Below, in pieces: positions 37,670-63,932 of a DNA stretch of 64,000 nucleotides (within the stretch, counting starts at the first letter, position 1; each line of letters opens with the position of its first letter). The notes below the pieces were generated by a model. That model ran no database searches, was not told where the DNA came from, and saw only the letters and a list, made by a program, of their open reading frames with translations. Both the position numbers and the translations under genes were made by a program. Source of the stretch: Liolophura sinensis (Eukaryota; Mollusca; Polyplacophora; Chitonida; Chitonidae); the NCBI RefSeq assembly GCF_032854445.1, contig NC_088300.1, forward strand, positions 18,109,570 through 18,173,569, written 5' to 3'.

Positions 37670-40600
37670 TTCGGCGCTTTTTCATAGCAATATTCCCGTG
37701 AAGAACATCTTTACAGCTTTCACACAGGCGGTAAGTAGATAGTAATGTTTTGGATTTTGACAGGTTTTATTATTTTGTCTATCCACATCTCTATCAATGA
37801 TACTATCATTGATTTCGTGAGCACAGCCACAACACTGTCAACACTCGCTTCACTTGATACATTCAGGGCTACATTCTACGATTGTAAAAATACCACACAT
37901 GCCTAGTCGATAATCCACCGTCGGAATCTCAACGTGTAGCTGATTTGACTAAACTTTTTGTTTCAGTGTTCTCTCCATTTGTCAGTCAGGAGACCTCAGG
38001 ATTTTGACAGGTTTGAGCCCTTTGATGGAAGAGGTACGGAAATAGAGTCATTGCTGGTGTTATAATGTTTATCCTGTTTGCAGTCCCTGGTTGAATTTTA
38101 CTTTTCATATTTTCTTAACAGTTACCTAACATGGGTCATTGTAGCTCTGTTCTGCCATAGTATTAAACTATTACATCGCTGGCATTTTTCTCAGTTGCCT
38201 GCCATTGTAAGATACCTTTTAATTTCTGTCTCTGATGGATTGAATGCGGGGTGGGGGGGGTGGGGCGGTGTGGAGGCAGCCGCCATGTTTGAATACGTAT
38301 GCCTCATTGAAAAATATGACCTAAAAAACTGATGTCTTTTCTGTTTATTGGGATTTAAAAGTGATTGTTGACATCACACATCTCAAATTATAATTAGTAT
38401 GTGATGTTAATTCTGTGAGAAAATTCTACTTTAAGAAGAAATTATGTCATTTTCATCAACTGACTGTAAATCTTGTACTTTGACTTGTATAGATTTGAAT
38501 TAAAATTTAAATTACACTTTTATATTCATCACGATATCCAGTGCAGTGACAGTGACATCATTGTGTGCAAAGATATTAGAGTTCATAATGGCATGGTGGT
38601 GTTTAATACAATGAAATCATATTCATAGGACATCATGATATTCGTTGGTAATGGCTGAGTTACATCATGATGTGACATTATGACACTGTGTGTCATTGTG
38701 TGACACACCATGCTGTCTAATGTTAGCGCTAAGTGTCTAGCATACAGTAACCCGCCATGATCCCAATGCTGTGACGGAGTGTGAGCTTATCAGGAATTGA
38801 AACTTTATTGCTAAATACACAATACATGATAATTTTCCTACCTTGATGAAGGTGTCTGTATTTGGTTTGGTGTTTTACGCCGTACTCAAGAATATTTCAC
38901 TTATACGACGGCGGCCAGCAGTATGGTGGGTGGAAACCGGGCAGAACCCAGGAGAAACCCACGACCATCCGCAGGTTGCTGTCATACCTTCCCACGTTCA
39001 CCATTGGTGAAAGGTATCTGTAGGTCAAAGGCTTGTTAATATGCTGATGCATATCACTAATCTGTCAGCTTTTAATAAACCATTGTGCATCAGTTAAAAT
39101 ACCCTAAATGACCATAAAGTTTATCCATGACTAATCTGACCATTTTTTCCTGATTCTGAGAGTTTGGTTACTTTTAGAAAGGTGTGCTAAGGGTTTGCTT
39201 GCTACATGGGATGATATTCCACTGGAAAATTTTAAATTTCAACACCAAAAGTAATATTTTGTGTCATTTATTTGCCTCTAAAAATACACTTTTGTGGACG
39301 AAACTTTAGGTCATTTAAGGTAAGTGAAAATTTCTGTAAAAATGAATGTTTTAATTCATAGGCTTGCCTGAAGATGGTGCTGTCATTCCAAGACAGCGAG
39401 CCGTACCGATCATTACATCTCGCAAGGTTGAATTCCCAGATCGCTACCGACCTAATAAGGTGGCCTGGTTAGAATCACTTAACACTGCAGAGGAGGAGAA
39501 ATTAGGCCTCGTTGATCTACACCCAGATGTCTTTGCTACATTTCCACGGTTTGTGAATAGAATTCTTGCTCTATTTTTCCATGTATCTAATGCTTATTTC
39601 TAGAAATAAAATTTACATATGTGTATAGAGAGTATGTTTACTCCTGGATTCAGCTGTAAAAATTTGGATAGAACCATTTCAGTGGCTATTTAAATCACCT
39701 ACGTGTATTGTTTAATATGCAAAAGGGGCTGGACTTTTAAAGTGGCCTTACAAGATGAGCATATGACAGCTACTGCAACATGTTACCCACAGTGCTGGTT
39801 ACTATCGAAATAACGTACATGCATCACTATAGTTTTTTCGTGAATTTTTGACCCAGAATTATTTTCTTGTGAATGTTTCATTTATATTTTAGCAAAAGGC
39901 ACACACATTTATCTGGAAATCCCACGTTCTCCAGTTTTGGCTAACCAGTCCTCAAAATGATTTGTTAGCATAGTCTATATTACCCCATAATTATAACCCT
40001 GAGCATTTCGGGTGGTAAGAAACACTGGATTGGTTATTAAAGCTTGGCTTTCAGCCAGTAGGTCTTGCAAGATTCTCAAACAGAGAATTCTCTAGTTCGC
40101 AGTGCTTTCATTGTTTTTAGAGCCTTTGTGGCAGTAAATTGATCAACATGTTCTGTGTTGTCTTGCCTGAAGTTCTCTGTTTTTGGAGTCTTGGTGGCAG
40201 TAAAGTGATCAGTGTGTCCTGTGTAGACTTGCTTGAAGATCTCTGCTTTTAGAGTCTTTGTGGCAGTAAAATGATGAACGTCTCCTATGTTGTTTTGCAT
40301 GAAGCTCTCTGTTTTTAGAGTCTTGGTGGCAGTAAAGTGATCAACATGTCCTGTGCTGTCTTGTAGGAAGTTCTCTGTTTTTAGAGTCTTTGTGGCAGTA
40401 AAGTGATCAACATGTCCTGTGCTGTCTTGTAGGAAGTTCTCTGTTTTTAGAGTCTTTGTGGCAGTAAAGTGATCAACATGTCCTGTGCTGTCTTGTAGGA
40501 AGTTCTCTGTTTTTAGAGTCTGTGTGGCAGTAAAGTGATCGTGTCCTGTGTTGTCTTGTAGGAAGTTCTCTGTTTTTAGAGTCTTTGTGGCAGTAAAGTG

Positions 40601-43600
40601 ATCACATGTCCCTGTGCTGTCTTGTAGGAAGTTCTCTGTTTTTAGAGTCTTTGTGGCAGTAAAGTGATCAACGTGTCCTGTGTTGTCTTGTAGGAAGTTC
40701 TCTGTTTTTAGAGTCCTTTGTGGCAGTAAAGTGATCAACATGTCCTGTGTTGTCTTGCAGGAAGTTCTCTGTTTTTAGAGTCTTTGTGGCAGTAAAGTGA
40801 TCAGTGTGTACTGTGTTGTCTTGCTTGAAGATCTCTGCTTGTAGAGTCTTTGTGGCAGTAAAATAATGAACGTTTGCATGAAGCTCTCTGTTTTTTAGAG
40901 TCTTGGTGGCAGTAAAGTGATCAAATGTCCTGTGTTGTCTTGCAGGAAGTTCTCTGTTTTTAGAGTCTTGGTGAAGTAAAATGATGAATGTCTCCTACAT
41001 TGTTTTGCATGAAGCCCTCTGTTTTTAGAGTCTTTGCGGCAGTAAATGATGAACGTCTCTTATATTGTCTGGCATGAAGTTCTCCATTTTTAGAGTCTTG
41101 GTGGCAGTAAAATGATCCACGTCTCTTATGTTGTCTGGCATGAAGTCCTCTGTTTTTAGAGTCTTGGTGGAAGTAAAGTGATGATTGTCTCCTGTGTTGT
41201 CTTGCATGAAGTTCACTGGAGATCCCTTGCCTTCAATCAGTGTAACATACATATTTGAGTATAGCACACAATTATAGCTGCTGTATAACAACAATCAAAT
41301 AAATGAATCAAGTGGTAGGAGAAAGTGAAATATGGTGCATGTAGCACATGGGCTGATCTGTTTATCAAGGGCTGTAACTGTGTATAGAATGCCAGGGTGT
41401 TTCAAATCTCACACCTTCCCTTTTTTATTGCAGCATTGATGTTCTTCATCAGAATGTCACATGGCAGTCACTCTATAAGAAGATTGTAAGTGAATTTTAA
41501 AGGACAAGACAAATAAATTATGTTAAACAGCAAGATAGAAAGTGGTACCTTGGAAAATAATTTTAATCCTTAAATTAAATATTATTTACTTGAAGATGAC
41601 TAATGTTAGACATGTTGATGATGTTGTCAACTCAAAAAGATCCTAAAAACAAAAGATGAATTTAGTGCCATGTACCAAAATAAATAATCCTTTCTTGACC
41701 ATTAGCATTCAAAATTGTATATGCACTCTATGCCTGTGTATCAGTATCATGGATTTTTAGTTAGCATGCATGTGGTATGTTGTATTTGTATCTTACCTTC
41801 TTGACAGGACTATAAAAGAGTCCCGACAAGAGCGGAGATGAGGGGAGGGGGACGGAAACCGTGGCCACAGAAAGGGACTGGACGGGCTCGACACGGGAGT
41901 ATCCGCTCTCCTATCTTTAAGAAGGGTATATATGAAATGCTTTTACTGTGTGCTATTTAAACATCCTGGTTTATGAAATGGGAGTTTATGAAATTGCTGG
42001 GATGAAACATTGCTCTTGGTCTCGGCTCGATCACCAGGCTGGTCAGGTATGTGGCTTTCCAGCGTTGCCATTTTCTGATGAACATGACATGAGTAAAAAG
42101 ATTGTTAGTAATTATTGTAAGTACATTGTTAGACATAATTTCAAATGAAATAAATGTAATGAAATGCTTATGAACTTGGATTTAAAGTTTCCATTTATGA
42201 AAGGATAATTTTTTATCAGATAACTGATGACTTAAGAAATGTACTAAATTTCCAGTTGTATGTGTGTCCAGAACATGTTCATGTGCTAACATGCACATAC
42301 AATATGTAATATTATCATTAGGACTAAAGGGCACCCATGTTCGCATGGTTAGGAGGGTAGCACAACACATTCTTCAATTAGGAGCAACTCATCAGTGGTG
42401 GTCTCAAGTACAGCATAAAACACCAATCAGATAAGTAAATCACCAGTGTGGTTGCTGTCAGTTCAATGCCAGCTCACACTGACTTAATTCGATTCATGTC
42501 CTACATGAGAAGATCTGCCAGTGGCCTGCAGATGGTTATGAGTGTCCCCCACACTCATTCCTTCCAACATAATGCTGGCAGTCATCGTATAAATGAAATA
42601 TTCTTAACACCAATCAGATAAATAATGAAATAAATCATATGGACTACTGGTATGTTGGTTACAGGGGGTGCTGCTCACGGTCCAAGAGGTCCCAAAAGTT
42701 ACTTTTATATGTTGGCAAAGACAACCAGGGCGCTTGGTTTGCGGGTGGCATTATCTGTCAAATTGGCACAGGTATGTTTAGTTAATAAATAATCTAATGG
42801 CAATAGAAGCACATTAATAAAGAGCTTAACCAGTTTGAGTTGACTTAGAGTTTGATAATCCTGGAACTTCCTCATATAACACCCAGCATAAAGGATGAGG
42901 TGTCCAGATGCAGTGCTAAGGTCGGGTGTCATGTCTGGTGCCTTCTCCATGACAGTCCAGTGAAGCAGCAATGTCAAAAAAAAAAAACAAAAAAAAATTC
43001 AAGATTTTAGGGGAAAGAGTGTATCTAATTATGTCACATTTGCACTGATTTGATTGTGCAATGTTGACTGCATGTTACAGTAGCCATTTGCAATGGACAA
43101 ACTGTTCAGTTAGTGAATAAAAAAATTCAAGTAACCTATCATCTGACTGTCCATTTATATCTGATCTTTATGTATGTTCCCAGGGAGATTTACACATAGT
43201 AGACTCATTTGACATCCCCAGTGATCAGCCAGAGGTGAGTACAACTAGCATTCTATCCAGGTCTGTTTTATCTGCCTGGAGTAAGACGAAGGATCTTAAG
43301 AAGTGCTACACCTACATGGTCTCTTCATTGTGAGAGTACATGAAGCAAAAAGGTCGTTTATGTTGAGTATCAAGTTTTCTGCATGTAATTGTCCTCTGTC
43401 TACTTAGGCAGCAGATAATAATAATAATGATAATAATGATAATAATAAAAAGCACTCTGAGTTAATGGCAAGATCAAAGTGCCTGTGAGAAAGTGACTGA
43501 AAAAATGGTGACATATTATGATAATTTCAGTCAAATATACGAAGCAACTGAAACCCCAGTCCATTCCATTCCATGGGAATAAATAAAGTCACTAAATGGA

Positions 43601-46600
43601 GATATGGGGCCCAAGGGATGGTGTGACACATTCAGTGTGTCTTGATAAATAGCGACAAATACATAGTTGAATGAAACAAATAAGGATGTCCAAATGTTTT
43701 AAATGTCACACCTGACAAACTCAAGTCCTTGAACTTAATGTATTGAGAGAAGCATATCTTTTAACTCCTGGGTGAAGAGTACAGATATTTGTACAAAAAA
43801 GGGACAGTAACATATTTGCCCTTCAGTTACTTGGAGCTCACTTTTTGTTTCTTTTTGGCAAGATTTACTTCCCTTAGCCCAGGGCTGGTGAAAAAACAGC
43901 AATATTTTGGGGTTCTGTATTTAAGCAGTATATTAGTAGCATATATGTGGTATAAGGCTAGCAGCAGGTACTTGATGCTTTGACAGTCTATTTTATATTC
44001 TCAAGTAGTTATGAATGAAATCAAGGGAGTATTGAGCTTTCACTTGTTTAGAAATTTTTCTCGTGCATACTATGTGATATGTATGGTACATCAGACTTAC
44101 CGGTGCAACTGGCTGCTTAATTCAAAGTCCCATTGATTTTAAGCAGTTTGAATAAATGTTGAATTTGGTGTACAAATTTATTTTTTAACTTGTATGCTGT
44201 ATTTCTAGTTTGAGTCACATTGATGTTGCAGTACATGGAATCTTTAGCTGAATCTCGGAAGTGGGGCGTTTCTGTACTGTTCATAGATGAGTAAGTTCAG
44301 ACAGCTTTTCACAGCGCTGATCATCTCTTGATGACACTATGCACCTACATCCCTCTAAACTGATGACCTAACCATTCCTTGCAAAAGAAGACAAATTTAT
44401 GTCCTTTCTGATTTTGACATCAAAGCAGTAATATTTTTATGTCATGTCAGGTATACCTGTGTTCATAAAAGTGAATGAAAGATTTTGTATTTGATGGAAA
44501 AGATGGGGATTTAAAGTTCTTTCAAATTTATTTTATTTGTTGATTTGATTGGTATTTTACGCCATGCTCAAGAATATTTCACTTTATAAGACAGCAGCCA
44601 GCATTATGGTGAAAGGAAACTGTGCAGAGACCTTGCAATATACATGTAGTGTAATGTATGTCTGATTTAAAGGTTTCCTTCCACCATGATGCTGGCTACT
44701 GTTGTATAAGAGAAATATTTTTGAGTGCAGTATGCATGTCTGATTTAAAAGAACTTCTCTATGTCGTTTCCATCGTCTTTTACAACAGCAGCCAGCATTA
44801 TGTTGGAAGGAAACCGGGTAGAGCAGTTCCTTTATATCAGATATATATTACTCTATATTTCCTTAGTTATACATGTAAATTGAGGATTCTTTTAAGTTAT
44901 GTTTGAATATGTGAGTATGTCATTTGATTCTTGCCGTTTATGTTAACAGCACTGACATAATGCCAAGAAACATCAGCCTGTCTCTGAACAAAATACCAAG
45001 TTTTAACCTGATGCCAGTCTATGGTACGTCATTCACTGTTGTTTTCCTTTTTTGTTACATTAAAGATATAGATGGAGAGCATCAGTGCATACTTTTAATT
45101 TATTATATCTGTTCTCTTTGATCTGTAGTATTACATGTAAGTGTGCTGTGTAGATATGAATATAGGTATGTGTATGTATGAATGCGTGCAGCATGCTCCT
45201 ATGTTTGTGGATCTAACCTGGGACAGGCTGGAATGTGGCTATGCCCTCATCTGTGCAGCTCTATGTGTTGACATTATGCTGTATTTGTGTAGATTACTCT
45301 AAATATTTTAAATGACCGTAAATTTCGTCCATGACTGACTTGCACATTTTCTTCTGATTCTCAGAGTTCTGTTGATTTTAGAAAGGTTTTTGAGGTTAGC
45401 TTTGAACATGGGATGATATTCAACTGGAAAATTTTAAGTTTCATTGCAAGAAAAAAGATATTTTGTAACATGTATTTGCCTCTAAAAATGCACTTTTGTG
45501 GACGAAATTTGAGGTCATTTATGGTATATGCACTGTATGCTATATTTTGTGCGAGACAGAAGGCTGTACTGTTGACTTCGTTTTGTGCATATAGGGTGTG
45601 TTCTAGCATGTACTCTCTGCTTTATTACGGGTATGTATGGTGTGTTCTATACACTTAATAATAGTGCTCTGATGTGCTGTGTGTATGCCCTAGTTTGTGC
45701 CAGTCAGAGCATGTACTCTCTGCTTTATTCTGGGTATGTATGGTGTGTTCTATACACTTTATAATAGTGCTCTGATGTGCTGTCTGTATGCCCTGGTTTG
45801 TGCCAGTCAGAGCATGTACTCTCTGCTTTATTCTGGGTATGTATGGTGTGATCTATACACTTTATAATAGTGCTCTGATATGCTGTGTGTATGCCCTGGT
45901 TGTGCCAGTCAGAGCTTGTACTCTCTGCTTTATTCTGGGTAAGTATGGTGTGATCTATACACTTTATAATAGTGCTCTGATGTGCTGTCTGTATGCCCTG
46001 GTTTGTGCCAGTCAGAGCATGTTCTCTCTGCTTTATTCTGGGTATGTATGGTGTGATCTATACACTTTATAATAGTGCTCTGATGTGATGTCTATATGCC
46101 CTGGTTGTGCCAGTCAGAGCATGTACTCTCTGCTTTATTCTGGGTAAGTATGGTGTGTTCTATACACTTTATAATAGTGCTCTGATGTGCTGTCTGTATG
46201 CCCTAGTTTGTGCCAGTCAGAGCATGTACTCTCTGCTTTATTCTGGGTATGTATGATGTGTTCTATACACTTTATAATAGTGCTCTGATATGCTGTGTGT
46301 ATGCCCTGGTTGTGCCAGTCAGAGTATGTACTCTCTGCTTTATTCTGGGTAAGTATGGTGTGATCTATACACTTTATAATAGTGCTCTGATGTGCTGTCT
46401 GTATGCCCTGGTTTGTGCCAGTCAGAGCATGTACTCTCTGCTTTATTCTGGATATGTATGGTGTGATCTATACACTTTATAATAGTGCTCTGATGTGCTG
46501 TGTGTATGCCCTGGTTGTGCCAGTCAGAGCATGTACTCTCTGCTTTATTCTGGGTATGTATGGTGTGATCTATACACTTTATAATAGTGCTCTGATGTGC

Positions 46601-49600
46601 TGTCTGTATGCCCTGGTTTGTGCCAGTCAGAGCATGTACTCTCTGCTTTATTCTGGATATGTATGGTGTGTTCTATACACTTTATAATAGTGCTCTGATG
46701 TGCTGTCTGTATGCCCTGGTTTGTGCCAGTCAGAGCATATACTCTCTGCTTTATTCTGGGTATGTATGATGTGTTCTGTACACTTTATAATAGTGCTCTG
46801 ATGTGCTGTCTGTATGCCCTGGTTGTGCCAGTCAGAGCATGTACTCTCTGCTTTATTCTGGGTATGTATGGTGTGTTCTATACACTTTATAATAGTGCTC
46901 TGATGTGCTGTCTGTATGCCCTAGTTTGTGCCAGTCAGAGCATGTACTCTCTGCTTTATTCTGGGTATGTATGATGTGTTCTATACACTTTATAATAGTG
47001 CTCTGATGTGCTGTCTGTATGCCCTAGTTTGTGCCAGTCAGAGCATGTACTCTCTGCTTTATTCTGGGTATGTATGATGTGTTCTATACACTTTATAATA
47101 GTGCTCTGATGTGCTGTCTGTATGCCCTGGTTTGTGCCAGTCAGAGCATGTACTCTCTGCTTTATTCTGGGTATGTATGATGTGTTCTATACACTTTATA
47201 ATAGTGCTCTGATGTGCTGTGTGTATGCCCTAGTTTGTGCCAGTCAGAGCATGTACTCTCTGCTTTATTCTGGGTATGTATGATGTGTTCTATACACTTT
47301 ATAATAGTGCTCTGATGTGCTGTCTGTATGCCCTGGTTGTGCCAGTCAGAGCATGTACTCTCTCCTTTATTCTGGGTATGTATGATGTGTTCTATACACT
47401 TTATAATAGTGCTCTGATGTGCTGTGTGTATGCCCTGGTTGTGCCAGTCAGAGCATGTACTCTCTGCTTTATTCTGGGTAAGTATGATGTGTTCTATGCA
47501 CTTTATAATAGTGCTCTGATGTGCTGTGTGTATGCCCTGGTTGTGCCAGTCAGAGCATGTACTCTCTGCTTTATTCTGGGTATGTATGATGTGTTCTATA
47601 CACTTTATAATAGTGCTCTGATGTGCTGTGTGTATGCCCTGGTTGTGCCAGTCAGAGCATGTACTCTCTGCTTTATTCTGGGTATGTATGATGTGTTCTA
47701 TACACTTTATAATAGTGCTCTGATGTGCTGTGTGTATGCCCTGGTTGTGCCAGTCAGAGCATGTACTCTCTGCTTTATTCTGGGTAAGTATGGTGTGTTC
47801 TATACACTTTATAATAGTGCTCTGATGTGCTGTCTGTATGCCCTGGTTTGTGCCAGTCAGAGCATGTACTCTCTGCTTTATTCTGGGTATGTATGATGTG
47901 TTCTGTACACTTTATAATAGTGCTCTGATGTGCTGTGTGTATGCCCTGGTTGTGCCAGTCAGAGCATGTACTCTCTGCTTTCTTCTGGGTATGTATGGTG
48001 TGTTCTATACACTTTATAATAGTGCTCTGATGTGCTGTCTGTATGCCCTAGTTTGTGCCAGTCAGAGCATGTACTCTCTGCTTTATTCTGGGTATGTATG
48101 ATGTGTTCTATACACTTTATAATAGTGCTCTGATGTGCTGTCTGTATGCCCTAGTTTGTGCCAGTCAGAGCATGTACTCTCTGCTTTATTCTGGGTGTGT
48201 ATGGTGTGTTCTATACACTTTATAATAGTGCTCTGATGTGCTGTCTGTATGCCCTAGTTTGTGCCAGTCAGAGCATGTACTCTCTGCTTTATTCTGGGTA
48301 TGTATGGTGTGATCTATACACTTTATAATAGTGCTCTGATGTGCTGTCTGTATGCCCTAGTTTGTGCCAGTCAGAGCATGTACTCTCTGCTTTATTCTGG
48401 GTATGTATGGTGTGTTCTATACACTTTATAATAGTGCTCTGATGTGCTGTGTGTATGCCCTGGTTGTGCCAGTCAGAGCATGTACTCTCTGCTTTATTCT
48501 GGGTATGTATGATGTGTTCTATACACTTTATAATAGTGCTCTGATGTGCTGTCTGTATGCCCTAGTTTGTGCCAGTCAGAGCATGTACTCTCTGCTTTAT
48601 TCTGGGTATGTATGATGTGTTCTATACACTTTATAATAGTGCTCTGATGTGCTGTGTGTATGCCCTGGTTGTGCCAGTCAGAGCATGTACTCTCTGCTTT
48701 ATTCTGGGTATGTATGATGTGTTCTATACACTTTATAATAGTGCTCTGATGTGCTGTGTGTATGCCCTGGTTGTGCCAGTCAGAGCATGTACTCTCTGCT
48801 TTATTCTGGGTAAGTATGGTGTGTTCTATACACTTTATAATAGTGCTCTGATGTGCTGTGTGTATGCCCTGGTTTGTGCCAGTCAGAGCATGTACTCTCT
48901 GCTTTATTCTGGGTAAGTATGGTGTGTTCTATGCACTTTATAATAGTGCTCTGATGTGCTGTGTGTATGCCCTGGTTGTGCCAGTCAGAGCATGTACTCT
49001 CTGCTTTATTCTGGGTAAGTATGGTGTGTTCTATACACTTTATAATAGTGCTCTGATGTGCTGTGTGTATGCCCTGGTTTGTGCCAGTCAGAGCATGTAC
49101 TCTCTGCTTTATTCTGGGTAAGTATGGTGTGTTCTATGCACTTTATAATAGTGCTCTGATGTGCTGTGTGTATGCCCTGGTTGTGCCAGTCAGAGCATGT
49201 ACTCTCTGCTTTATTCTGGGTAAGTATGGTGTGTTCTATACACTTTATAATAGTGCTCTGATATGCTGTGTGTATGCCCTAGTTTGTGCCAGTCAGAGCA
49301 TGTACTCTCTGCTTTATTCTGGGTATGTATGATGTGTTCTATACACTTTATAATAGTGCTCTGATGTACTGTGTGTATGCTCTGGTTTCTGCCTTTGAAA
49401 AGATGTGTATGCTTTGTTTTGATGCTGGCTTGGGTATTTGCAGTACCTGCACTGTGATGTTTAGAAGCTTAGTCTATGTACATAAAGCAGTGCATCTAAA
49501 CATTGGGCCTTGCGTGTAGAAGTTTTTCCACTACATTACCTGACTGTACATACCCACCATAAACCTACATTGTACCAAAAATGCCCTGTAGTGGGAGTTA

Positions 49601-52600
49601 ATCCACTTGATTTCTCTGTCTACTTTCCTGCTATAAATTTCTCCAAAATATGACAGTGCATACCGATACAGAGTGTATGTAGGTTGTGTTGTGTGATACA
49701 TTGTGTGCATGTAGTTTTTTTTTCTTCAATTCAACCCCTGACTGTTTTGTACTGTTCAGAACATGTACTGCTGGGATCATATGCCCTGTGCAGGTTTTGA
49801 CATTTGCTGTACCAGTATGCTTCGTGGTGTTGAGATCTGGAGCTGTTCTATTAACCGTGTTTTATTCAGAGCAGAATTGTATGCTCGACATCTATGTGTC
49901 GCAGGTTTGAACATGTACAATGTGCTCTGTGGTGTGCAGATTAGAAGCTACACATATGCTTTAAGGTCTGTTTTCTTCAAACCCGAACATTTGTATGCTC
50001 TCTATCATGCAGGTTAACGCTGACAGTATGCTCTGTATCATTCTGATCTTAACATCTACAGTATGGTCACCATCATTCAGGCCTTAACATCTACAGTATG
50101 CTCACCATCATTCAGGCCTTAAAATCTACAGCATGATCTCTTTCATTCAGGCCTTAACATCTACAGTATGCTCACCATCATTCAGGCCTTAACGTCTACA
50201 GTATGCTCACCATCATCCAGGCCTTAACATCTACAGTATGCTCACCATCATTCAGGCCTTATCATCAACAGTATGCTCTGTATCATTCAGGCCTTAACAT
50301 CTACAGTATGCTCTGTATCATTCAGGTCTTTACATCTACAGTATGCTCTGTATCATTCAGGCCTTAATATCTACAGTATGCTCTGTATCACTCAGGTCTT
50401 TGCATCTACAGTATTCTTTCTGTCATTCAGTCCTTAACATCGACAATATGCTCACCATCATTAAGGTCTTAACATCGACAGTATGCTCACCATCATAAAG
50501 GTCTTAACATCAACAGTACGCTCACCATCATTCAGGTTTTACAATCCACAGTGTGCTCTCTCATGATTCAGACCTTAATATCTGCAGTGTGTTCTCTATC
50601 ATTCAGGTCTTAACATCTACATTCTGATCTCTTTCATTCTGCAGATGTTAACATCTACAGTATGCTCTCATGCATGGCATAGTCTACGGTATGCTGTCTA
50701 TTGTTCAGGTCTTAATATCTAGGTCTTCATATCTACTATATGCTCTCTGTCATGCTGGTCTTCATGTCTACAGTATGCTCTCTGTCATGCAGGTCTTCAT
50801 GTCTACAGTATGCTCTCTGTCATGCAGGTCTTCATGTCTACAGTATGCTCTCTGTCATGCAGATCTTCATGTCTACTGTATGCTCTCTGTCATGCAGGTC
50901 TTAATGCCTACTATGTGCTCTCTGGCATGCAGGTCTTCATGTCTACTGTATGCTCTTTGTCATGCATCTACAGTATTCTTTCTATCATTCAGTCCTTAAC
51001 ATCAACAATATGCTCACCATCATTAAGGTCTTAACATTGACAGTATGCTCACCATCATTAAGGTCTTAACATCTACAGTACGCTCACCATCATTCAGGTT
51101 TTACCATCCACAGTGTGCTCTCTCATGATTCAGACCTTAATATCTGCGGTGTGTTCTCTATCATTCAGGTCTTAACATCTACATTCTGATCTCTTTCATT
51201 CTGCAGATGTTAACATCTACAGTATGCTCTCATGCATGGCTTAGTCTACGGTATGCTGTCTATTGTTCAGGTTTTAATATTTACTGAACAGCATGGTGTC
51301 TATCGGGACATGGAGGTCTTCATGATTACTGTATGCTCTCTGTCATGCAGGTCTTCATGTCTACAGTATGCTCTCTGTCATGCAGGTCTTCATGTCTACT
51401 GTATGCACTGTCATGCAGGTCTTCATGTCTACTGTATGCTCTCTGTCATGCAGGTCTTCATGTCTACTGTATGCTCTCTGTCATGCAGGTCTTCATGTCT
51501 ACTGTATGCTTTTTGTCATGCAGGTCTTCATGTCTACATTATGTCTCTGTCCTGCAGGTCTTTATGTCTGCTGTATGCTCTCTGTCCTGCAGGTCTTCAT
51601 GTCTACTGTATGCTCTCTGTCACGCAGTTCTTCATGTCTACTGTATGCTCTCTGTCACGCAGGTCTTCATGTCTACTGTATGCTCTCTGTCCTGCAGGTC
51701 TTCATGTCTACTGTATGCTCTGTCATGCAGGTCTTCATGTCTACTGTATGCTCTCTGTCACGCAGTTCTTCATGTCTACTGTATGCTCTCTGTCCTGCAG
51801 GTCTTCAAGTCTACTGTATGCTCTGTGTCACGCAGTTCTTCATGTCTACTGTATGCTCTCTGTCATGCAGGTCTTCAAGTCTACTGTATGCTCTCTGTCC
51901 TGCAGGTCTTAATGTCTACAGTATGTCTCTGTCGTGCAGGTCTTCATGTCTACTGTATGCTCTCTGTCATGCAGGTCTTCATGTCTACTGTATGCTCTCT
52001 GTCATGCAGGTCTTCATGTCTACTGTATGCTCTCTGTCACACAGGTCTTCATGTCTACTGTATGCTCTCTGTCATGCAGTTCTTCATGTCTACTGTATGC
52101 TCTCTGTCCTGCAGGTCTTCATATCTACTGTATGCTCTCTGTCCTGCAGGTCTTAATGTCTACAGTATGCTCTCTGTCCTGCAGGTCTTCATGTCTACTG
52201 TATGCTCTCTGTCATGCAGTTCTTCATGTCTACTGTATGCTCTCTGTCATGAAGTTCTTCATGTCTACTGTATGCTCTCTCTCCTACAGGTCTTAATGTC
52301 TACTGTATGCTCTCTGTCCTGCAGGTCTTCATGTCTACTGTATGCTCTCTGTCATGCAGTTCTTCATGTCTACTGTATGCTCTCTGTCCTGCAGGTCTTC
52401 ATGTCTACTGTATGCTCTCTGTCCTGCAGGTCTTCATGTCTACTGTGTGCTCTCTGTCCTGCAGGTCTTCATGTCTACTGTATGCTCTCTGTCCTGCAGG
52501 TCTTCATGTCTACTGTATGCTCTCTGTCCTGCAGGTCTTCATGTCTACTGTATGCTCTCTGTCCTGCAGGTCTTCATGTCTACTGTATGCTCTCTGTCCT

Positions 52601-52895
52601 GCAGGTCTTCATGTCTACTGTATGCTCTGTCATGCAGGTCTTCATGTCTACAGTATGCTCTCTGTCCTGCAGGTCTTCATGTCTACTGTATGCTCTCTGT
52701 CATGCAGGTCTTAATGTCTACAGTATGCTGAAGCACGAGAGCCTGGTGCTGACCTTGGCCGCTGTGGAGAAAATTGAGAATCGGCTGCTGTACTTGATGC
52801 ACTCAAGCGCCGCAGACAGAAAGTACACCACCACTTGGATGTTGAAGGAAGAGGAGTGGGAACCGAATTATTTCAAGGATCAGGTCACCTGGTGA
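37650..52895 (+). CDS. MRPL4: Mitochondrial large-subunit ribosomal protein uL4m
   Basis: uL4m binds 23S-like rRNA and helps line the exit tunnel of the mitochondrial large ribosomal subunit. Coding exons are 37,650-37,730, 37,967-38,033, 39,362-39,548, 41,434-41,485, 41,808-41,925, 42,665-42,771, 43,184-43,234, 44,232-44,290, 44,950-45,023 and 52,708-52,895. All junctions are GT-AG and in phase, giving 327 aa (human about 311). Exon 1 codes an Arg/Ser/Ala-rich presequence starting [14 protein letters not shown]. Later landmarks are [20 protein letters not shown] (residues about 99-118), the uL4 loop [20 protein letters not shown] (141-160), [28 protein letters not shown] and [17 protein letters not shown] (from 266). 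The start codon sits in a hairpin. Intron 9 is 7.7 kb, mostly tandem arrays, one of which copies the exon 10 acceptor. Candidate poly(A) signals (ATTAAA 53,604; AATAAA 53,804) are distant, so the 3' end is unresolved. Confidence 0.96.
38861..39026 (-). repeat. SINE in MRPL4 intron 2, head lost
   Basis: TTTGGTGTTTTACGCCGTAC runs through GACGGCGGCCAGCAGTATGG to CGCAGGTTGCTG, followed by a fragment of head (CCATTGGTGAAAGG). The tail and body are close to the main consensus. Confidence 0.88.
39105..39317. mobile_element. 213-bp MITE, copy A, MRPL4 intron 2
   Basis: The ends are inverted: TAAATGACCATAAAGTTTAT on the left against TTAAATGACCTAAAGTTTCG when the right end is reverse-complemented. The interior (GGGATGATATTCCACTGGAA, TTTGCCTCTAAAAATACAC) matches a second copy at 45,309-45,521 of exactly the same length. 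TA at both ends fits a TA target duplication, as for mariner-type elements. Confidence 0.75.
40085..41215 (+). repeat. 66-bp minisatellite in MRPL4 intron 3, about 17 copies
   Basis: The unit contains GTTCTCTGTTTTTAGAGTC, TTTGTGGCAGTAAAGTGATC and TGTGTTGTCTTG(T/C)AGGAA. I counted 17 copies of the TTTTTAGAGTC-type word. Because 66 is a multiple of three, the minus strand stays open for 221 codons (40,076-40,741) with a 22-residue repeat ([16 protein letters not shown]). This is antisense to MRPL4 and has no recognisable domain. Each unit also has an acceptor-like CTTGTAG or CTTGCAG on the plus strand. Confidence 0.95.
42396..42625 (+). repeat. Degraded SINE copies in MRPL4 intron 5
   Basis: A tail scrap (AAAACACCAATCAGATAAGT) is followed by a second, longer copy running GATCTGCCAGTGGCCTGCAG to CACCAATCAGATAAATAATG. 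Both are plus orientation and diverged. Confidence 0.75.
43415..43450 (+). repeat. ATAAT-type microsatellite in MRPL4 intron 7
   Basis: A short run of ATAATAATAATAATG-type trinucleotide repeats. Confidence 0.95.
44521..44830. repeat. Cluster of three SINE fragments in MRPL4 intron 8
   Basis: A minus-oriented tail and body piece (TGATTTGATTGGTATTTTAC, about 44,521-44,640) is followed by a plus-oriented piece (GGTTTCCTTCCACCATGATG, 44,668-44,735). A second minus-oriented body piece (GCAGCCAGCATTATGTTGGA) lies at 44,787-44,825. Confidence 0.75.
45309..45521. mobile_element. 213-bp MITE, copy B, MRPL4 intron 9
   Basis: It has the same length and ends as the 39,105 copy: TAAATGACCGTAAATTTCGT to GACGAAATTTGAGGTCATTT. 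The internal words GGGATGATATTCAACTGGAA and TTGCCTCTAAAAATGCACTT are shared. Confidence 0.75.
45590..49385 (+). repeat. 102/103-bp tandem array in MRPL4 intron 9
   Basis: About 3.8 kb of head-to-tail units hold CACTTTATAATAGTGCTCTG, TGTGCCAGTCAGAGCATGTA and CTCTGCTTTATTCTGGGTAT. By length there are about 37 copies, alternating between 102 and 103 bp (GGTTGTG versus GGTTTGTG). Units read TTCTGGGTATGTATG or TTCTGGGTAAGTATG, so each carries a good 5' splice-donor match. The 102-bp units keep one frame open, giving Cys-rich open frames (for example 47,237-47,896) that I regard as by-products. Copies are very similar, implying recent homogenisation. Confidence 0.97.
49990..52729 (+). repeat. 35-bp tandem array made of splice-acceptor copies, MRPL4 intron 9 into exon 10
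   Basis: Two subfamilies of one 35-bp unit are present. At about 50,020-50,640 (and again near 50,990-51,230) units read TTCAGGCCTTAACATCTACA with CTCACCATCA. From about 50,740 they read TGCAGGTCTTCATGTCTACT with GTATGCTCTCTGTC. Length implies about 75 units. The last unit is the true exon 10 acceptor: CATGCAG, then GTCTTAATGTCTACAGTATG, in which the exon codes GLNVYSML. The unit has no stop in any of its three frames, so all frames stay open for long distances. The frame of exon 10 is open from 51,333 to the stop at 52,895. Confidence 0.97.

Positions 52896-57708: not shown

Positions 57709-63932
<6,224 letters not shown>

Follow-up and report, generated by a model that had tools for sequence, protein, structure and literature searches.

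We analysed a window of 64,000 nucleotides from the chiton Liolophura sinensis (assembly GCF_032854445.1, contig NC_088300.1, positions 18,109,570 to 18,173,569 of the forward strand), which includes the gene of the mitochondrial ribosomal protein MRPL4. The intron preceding the last MRPL4 exon contains a minisatellite whose units are copies of the splice acceptor of that exon together with its first bases. We interpret it, with a probability of roughly 0.72, as a splice-boundary minisatellite of the kind called "mirages" in amphioxus, which would be tolerated through exon definition. The positions given below are those of the window, and its features are collected in Table 1.

A minisatellite built from a splice acceptor

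Tandem Repeats Finder (TRF) identified a period of 35 bp and 78.2 copies between 49993 and 52729. The wraparound alignment to a unit starting at the exon gave identical limits and ~78 units. Each unit consists of an exon-like part of 22 bases and, after it, an intron-like part of 13 bases that ends in CAG, and 73 of the 78 units start directly after an AG. The final partial unit (52708-52729) is the first 22 nt of the last MRPL4 exon, and ~77 copies of the exon start and its splice signal sit in the preceding intron. The units are in register with the junction, as expected from a preliminary description of the window, which had derived the array from this acceptor; its count of about 75 repeats captured a real tandem array, the number being ~78. 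The likeness between array and exon start is beyond chance in the older part of the array, since 0/200 shuffles reached the score of the segment 50050-50400. Degenerate units extend the array further upstream (49394-49992, score reached by 0/300 shuffles), with a higher-order spacing of ~105-115 bp in places. When the genome was searched with a 301-bp stretch of the exon edge, all 30 matches listed fell within the MRPL4 intron and exon, although this search scored the best candidates only and the 30 matches do not prove absence elsewhere.

The host gene is an intact MRPL4. Eight exons joined from 39362-52895 give a product of 277 amino acids in one frame (one exon start was set at its AG). This product matches residues 14-244 of the 39S protein L4 chain 3j7y_F (E = 5e-88), which we take to be the human chain, and the Pfam family Ribosomal_L4 (1.5e-54). 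The array-bearing intron covers 45024-52707, after an exon whose end, in phase 1, is at 45023. The last exon, from 52708, opens with (G)LNVYSMLKH; these residues align to GLNVHSMLKH in 3j7y_F, and also to another uL4m chain. The conservation of GLNVYSML with human MRPL4 stated in the preliminary description agrees with this alignment.

Origin and divergence of the array

The direction of the copying follows from the protein. The exon sequence is constrained by the protein and older than the array, which means that the array came from the exon and not the reverse. This agrees with the earlier proposal that a protein-constrained acceptor seeded the array. Only four of the 78 units, the exon itself included, code GLNVYSM. 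Identity to the exon start is ~17.8/20 in the nearest 1.4 kb and 13-16/20 in older units, and it declines with distance (rho -0.50). One upstream unit, at 52150, repeats all 22 nt of the exon start exactly, and the unit at 51906 matches 20 of the 22. The array also contains a block of 320 nt that recurs at a distance of 562 nt with 310 identities, which fits unequal exchange.

These patterns suggest how the array may have formed. A short tandem duplication would have copied the junction of the last MRPL4 exon, i.e. 13 intronic bases including the AG and 22 exonic bases. Slippage and unequal exchange would then have multiplied and homogenised the copies within the intron, with selection on the protein keeping the exon-attached copy fixed. 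Growth by this route and its neutrality are suppositions, and so is the identity of the acceptor used.

Choice of the splice acceptor

The immediate surroundings of the true acceptor are duplicated within the array. The 64 nt upstream of it are identical at acceptor 52219, four acceptors (51453, 51488, 51974 and 52009) share its 40 upstream and 5 downstream nt, and the 22 nt downstream are identical at 52149. Acceptor 50827 has the same base as the true one at 89 of 92 positions (-70 to +22); among the array acceptors, no single copy matches it over all 92. The pyrimidine content between -22 and -5 equals or exceeds that of the true acceptor at 39/72 upstream acceptors, and a YTNAY motif occurs within -45 to -16 at 66/73 acceptors, the true one included. 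On this comparison, local sequence alone would hardly pick the splice site. The true acceptor differs in what comes after the 22 shared bases, i.e. in the exon body and the transcript end, from which we infer exon definition: the acceptor contiguous with the exon would likely win in this way. The array would then be tolerated because the acceptor joined to the true exon body is chosen through exon enhancers and, for a last exon, the polyadenylation side, rather than through local acceptor strength or the first AG.

Arrays at exon edges in other genes

The window contains a second array of this design, of the donor type. Immediately after a Rab4 exon on the minus strand, from 59948 down, come units of 21 bp that keep register with the last 17 exon bases and the donor. 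The exon and the next one match a chain aligned over all 72 amino acids (E = 2.4e-37), with Rab4A and Rab4B listed next. When the 21-mers of the window were tested as seeds, 1/1500 in forward and 1/1500 in reverse orientation scored as high as the Rab4 seed. The preliminary description had missed that such arrays recur, both here and in other genes.

Clear donor arrays were found in CCT5 (109 bp), at two exons of CCT3 (66/88 bp and ~50-60 bp), in Ral (34-35 bp), in PSMB1 (80 bp, locus L079) and in a Ras-family gene on contig C4 (95 bp, locus L100). For five genes (Rab4, CCT5, CCT3, Ral and PSMB1) the exon peptides were compared with orthologues of solved structure, and they match; in CCT3 the comparison covered one of the two exons. 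CCT5 has a downstream copy identical to the exon copy along the full 109-bp unit, and Ral has one identical along all 35 bases. The site presumed to be authentic is the exon-contiguous one in each case, which means the first copy of a donor array and the last of an acceptor array. Two acceptor cases are weaker. One is a 41-bp array at a CCT3 exon, with ~5 exon bases; the other is a 29-bp array at a Rab-family exon (C8:57088540), which abuts the acceptor and is counted as weak because its repeated motif does not quite take in the true AG. According to the survey described below, the CCT3 gene (L054, C8:53404001-53413000) has three exon-edge arrays, and another apparent repeat comes right behind one donor, that of the exon matched from 53412482. 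The arrays of the Ras-family gene (95 bp) and of PSMB1 (80 bp) resemble that of MRPL4 (see below) in that several intronic copies have differences from the exon copy in common, and these arrays may likewise have been homogenised apart from the exon.

We surveyed exon edges in three Pfam families, using 59 of 150 scored matches for PF00071 (36 in loci L013-L042, 21 in L082-L101 and 2 without locus sequence), 48/50 for PF00118 and 21/21 for PF00227. Six CCT stretches were initially picked since their exons lay in long open frames; later all nine multi-exon CCT clusters were included, three of them in part. After leaving out 44 edges at domain ends and one with less than 300 bp of flank, 207 internal exon edges were kept, from which the MRPL4 and Rab4 cases of the window are excluded. 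A TRF array reaches into the exon match at 8/207 of these edges (6/100 donors and 2/107 acceptors), and both acceptor arrays include few or no exon bases.

Splice junctions might be preferred seeds, if breaks linked to transcription or splicing at exon edges promote tandem duplication. Arrays should then be enriched at edges over intron interiors. At 5/207 edges the array end lies 0-40 bp inside the exon, where the intron rate would predict 1.5 (one-sided P = 0.019), which is in favour of this idea. However, the 0-120 bp bin gives 8 against 4.5 expected (P = 0.087), the edges drawn from hidden Markov models are inexact, the counts are small, and a model of random seeding plus selection within exons does about as well. 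We consider preferred seeding unlikely, and rejected a strong enrichment at exon edges as the P-value depends on the bin. The survey agrees with random seeding, any excess at exon edges being modest at most.

A broader generalisation is tentative, and we regard it as doubtful: that exon edges as a class seed satellites in this genome, that arrays of near-identical donors or acceptors sit at a few per cent of the conserved boundaries, and that splicing lands on the exon-contiguous copy by exon definition. If true, the information for site choice would lie outside the tens of bases common to the true site and its decoys, and such arrays would be natural experiments for the exon-definition rule.

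Points against the interpretation and alternative explanations

Several observations weigh against a tolerated array of exon-derived copies. The units near the exon mostly differ from it at two fixed positions (A6C and A15T), which in the exon frame would turn N to H and S to C, a correction to the preliminary description. The donor GT of Rab4 is lost in 12/12 aligned intronic copies. Arrays in the survey are rarer at acceptors than at donors (2/107 versus 6/100), a difference that is not significant (p = 0.16), and units with at least ~10 exon bases occur at 0/107 acceptors versus 6/100 donors (p = 0.012, with a cut of ~10 exon bases chosen after the data had been seen). Finally, boundary repeats in human segmental duplications reportedly cause alternative splicing and new introns, with support by alternative transcripts for 66% of these intron changes (PMC2812944); boundary copies are therefore not always ignored. 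The fixed A6C and A15T differences suggest that the exon did not reseed the recent array, whose units would have been homogenised among themselves; the exon copy would have been kept as it was during the drift of the array. If the asymmetry between donors and acceptors is real, acceptor decoys may cost more than donor decoys, and MRPL4 would then be an unusual case.

The upstream acceptors might truly be used, which would produce MRPL4 isoforms with extra residues coded by the array; every third unit would keep the frame, adding multiples of ~35 amino acids. The AG retained in 73 of the 78 units would suit such use, as would the native frame, open through the array for 1.4 kb, and the native C-terminus would be kept by 13/73 acceptors (12 upstream and the true one). 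Boundary repeats of human duplicated genes yield alternative transcripts, according to the same report (PMC2812944). On the other hand, the native C-terminus would be lost with 60/73 acceptors, and the AG columns (0.96) are conserved no better than several other columns. The openness of the frame follows from a unit without stops: TAA occurs in another frame in three units, and the chance that all miss the native frame is ~0.3 by simple arithmetic. A piece of 253 amino acids of the array-coded peptide gave no Pfam family match, and we rejected the 535-codon frame as meaningful coding sequence. Hence, we regard isoforms of this kind as improbable, and retain the exon-contiguous acceptor as the one presumably used.

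An array produced by mis-assembly or polymerase stutter is very improbable. The assembly is imperfect elsewhere, with mitochondrial COX1 recurring at ~15.5-kb steps in one contig; but the MRPL4 units differ by patterned substitutions, the array is older and degenerate on one side and has a block duplicated within it, and arrays of like design exist in other genes and contigs. The COX1 series consists of seven head-to-tail mitochondrial copies in contig C99 and is probably an assembly product. The suggestion that the last unit is selected by its own hidden branch point or a better final pyrimidine tract, both raised in the preliminary description, is barely credible given the exact copies of its upstream context (64 nt at 52219, and 40 nt plus 5 nt at four sites), the 39/72 upstream acceptors as rich or richer in pyrimidines, and a YTNAY motif that is not peculiar to it (66/73).

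Other repeats and features

Table 1. Positions and strands of the features described in the window
Feature	Position	Strand	Remarks
Acceptor-type splice-boundary minisatellite	49993..52729	+	78 units of 35 bp, reaching 22 nt into the last MRPL4 exon; TRF and wraparound alignment
Last MRPL4 exon	52708..52895	+	Ends ...FKDQVTW stop; its initial 22 nt form the final, incomplete unit of the array
GCAG acceptor	52704..52707	+	Taken as authentic from the protein-conserved junction; use presumed
Degenerate older 35-bp units	49394..49992	+	Significant
Block of ~9 units	50402..50721	+	Second copy at 50964-51283, 310/320 identical
535-codon open frame	51288..52895	+	From the array into the last exon, native frame
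103-bp satellite	45605..49393	+	In the MRPL4 intron shared with the array
Seven upstream MRPL4 coding exons and introns	39362..45023	+	Coding exons as far 5' as traced
Donor-type array of 21-bp units, seeded by the end of the Rab4 exon (...VYDIT, then donor)	59624..59948	-	Clear to ~59695, poorer beyond

The 103-bp satellite has ~37 copies that are 96% alike. Many of its units carry GGGTAAGTATGG, which is donor-like and lies upstream of the acceptor-rich array. All 17 genome matches listed for this satellite sit in the same MRPL4 intron. Kinship with the 35-bp unit was suggestive by eye and from the spacing, and we rejected it because 30/500 and 157/500 shuffles reached the score; the 103-bp unit also scored against the stretch 49581-49963, a score reached by 4/300 shuffles. 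Another MRPL4 intron contains a 66-bp array (40112-41218), many units of which carry the acceptor-like TTGTCTTG(C/T)AGGAAG, and which ends ~216 bp before the next exon. Its kinship with the 35-bp unit was also rejected (111/500 and 53/500 shuffles), an earlier score (0/200) having been inflated by a null that did not preserve the period.

Further from MRPL4, a 21-bp array (62595-62696) lies beside an open frame on the minus strand (62911-62507), of which 112 amino acids were tested against Pfam and gave no match. Some stretches of the window look like a molluscan short interspersed element (SINE), although the letters searched occurred in no paper of the open-licence literature. Elsewhere in the genome, eight matches to the hemocyanin beta-sandwich family lie in one cluster of 11 kb; the eight-unit hemocyanin gene is molluscan, and the cluster points to a mollusc. 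The mitochondrial COX1 reads in the invertebrate code and looks like that of a protostome, and we take the genome not to be that of an amphioxus.

Comparison with known systems

The MRPL4 array of 78 units in a mollusc, together with the arrays at 8/207 edges, suggests that splice-boundary minisatellites are more widespread. As the true site and its decoys are near-identical locally, they offer a test of exon definition against site strength or the first AG, on sites that were not engineered.

Precedents for such structures exist, which the preliminary description had overlooked. Some human segmental duplications have minisatellite-type repeats with ~30-bp units at exon-intron boundaries (PMC2812944). 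The location and the type of unit are alike, but the human repeats average ~4 units and concern recent primate paralogs and novel introns, whereas here a conserved gene has 78 units. In the polyubiquitin gene UBC (PMC10809524), dual-specific AGGT splice sites occur in tandem repeats. The true MRPL4 acceptor similarly reads CAG/GT within tandem copies; the UBC repeats are coding and are spliced out as whole units, whereas the MRPL4 units are intronic. The GT side of these units (GTCTTC, with CTTC or CTTA after the GT) is presumably a poor donor, judged against the consensus. Introns are also said to be gained by tandem genomic duplication, when a duplicated segment with splice signals yields a new intron (papers on this subject include PMC4974935 and PMC3443670). 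Both processes start from a duplicated segment with a splice signal; here it is the edge of an existing intron that was multiplied. Arrays of this kind may also feed intron growth and intron gain.

Among molluscs, simple repeats have been reported in Conus introns (PMC3862624), and the excerpted part of that report contains no exon-boundary arrays. We found no mollusc boundary array in the open-licence literature searched, and a case may be in print elsewhere.

The closest known system is that of the amphioxus mirages, described at the globin genes BflGb6 and BflGb9 and at Adh3 (PMC3087553), and at PGBD5 and troponin C (PMC3902484). These are tandem minisatellite copies across an exon/intron boundary, on either side, many with AG or GT signals, and the authentic gene parts are still used; regular splicing is reportedly undisturbed (PMC3087553, PMC3902484). 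The MRPL4 array shares this structure: its unit spans the boundary with 13 intronic and 22 exonic bases, an AG precedes 73/78 units, and the host gene keeps its native junction and its frame across eight exons. It differs in size, a single acceptor here having 78 units and the two BflGb6 haplotypes 6 and 3 (PMC3087553), and in the kind of data, since the amphioxus data suggested regular splicing and the MRPL4 array is known from the genome sequence alone. The published mirages are from cephalochordates and the host here is a mollusc, a taxon being no part of the structural definition. The array would thus be the same kind of structure as the amphioxus mirages, in a phylum that is new for them as far as the open-licence literature shows.

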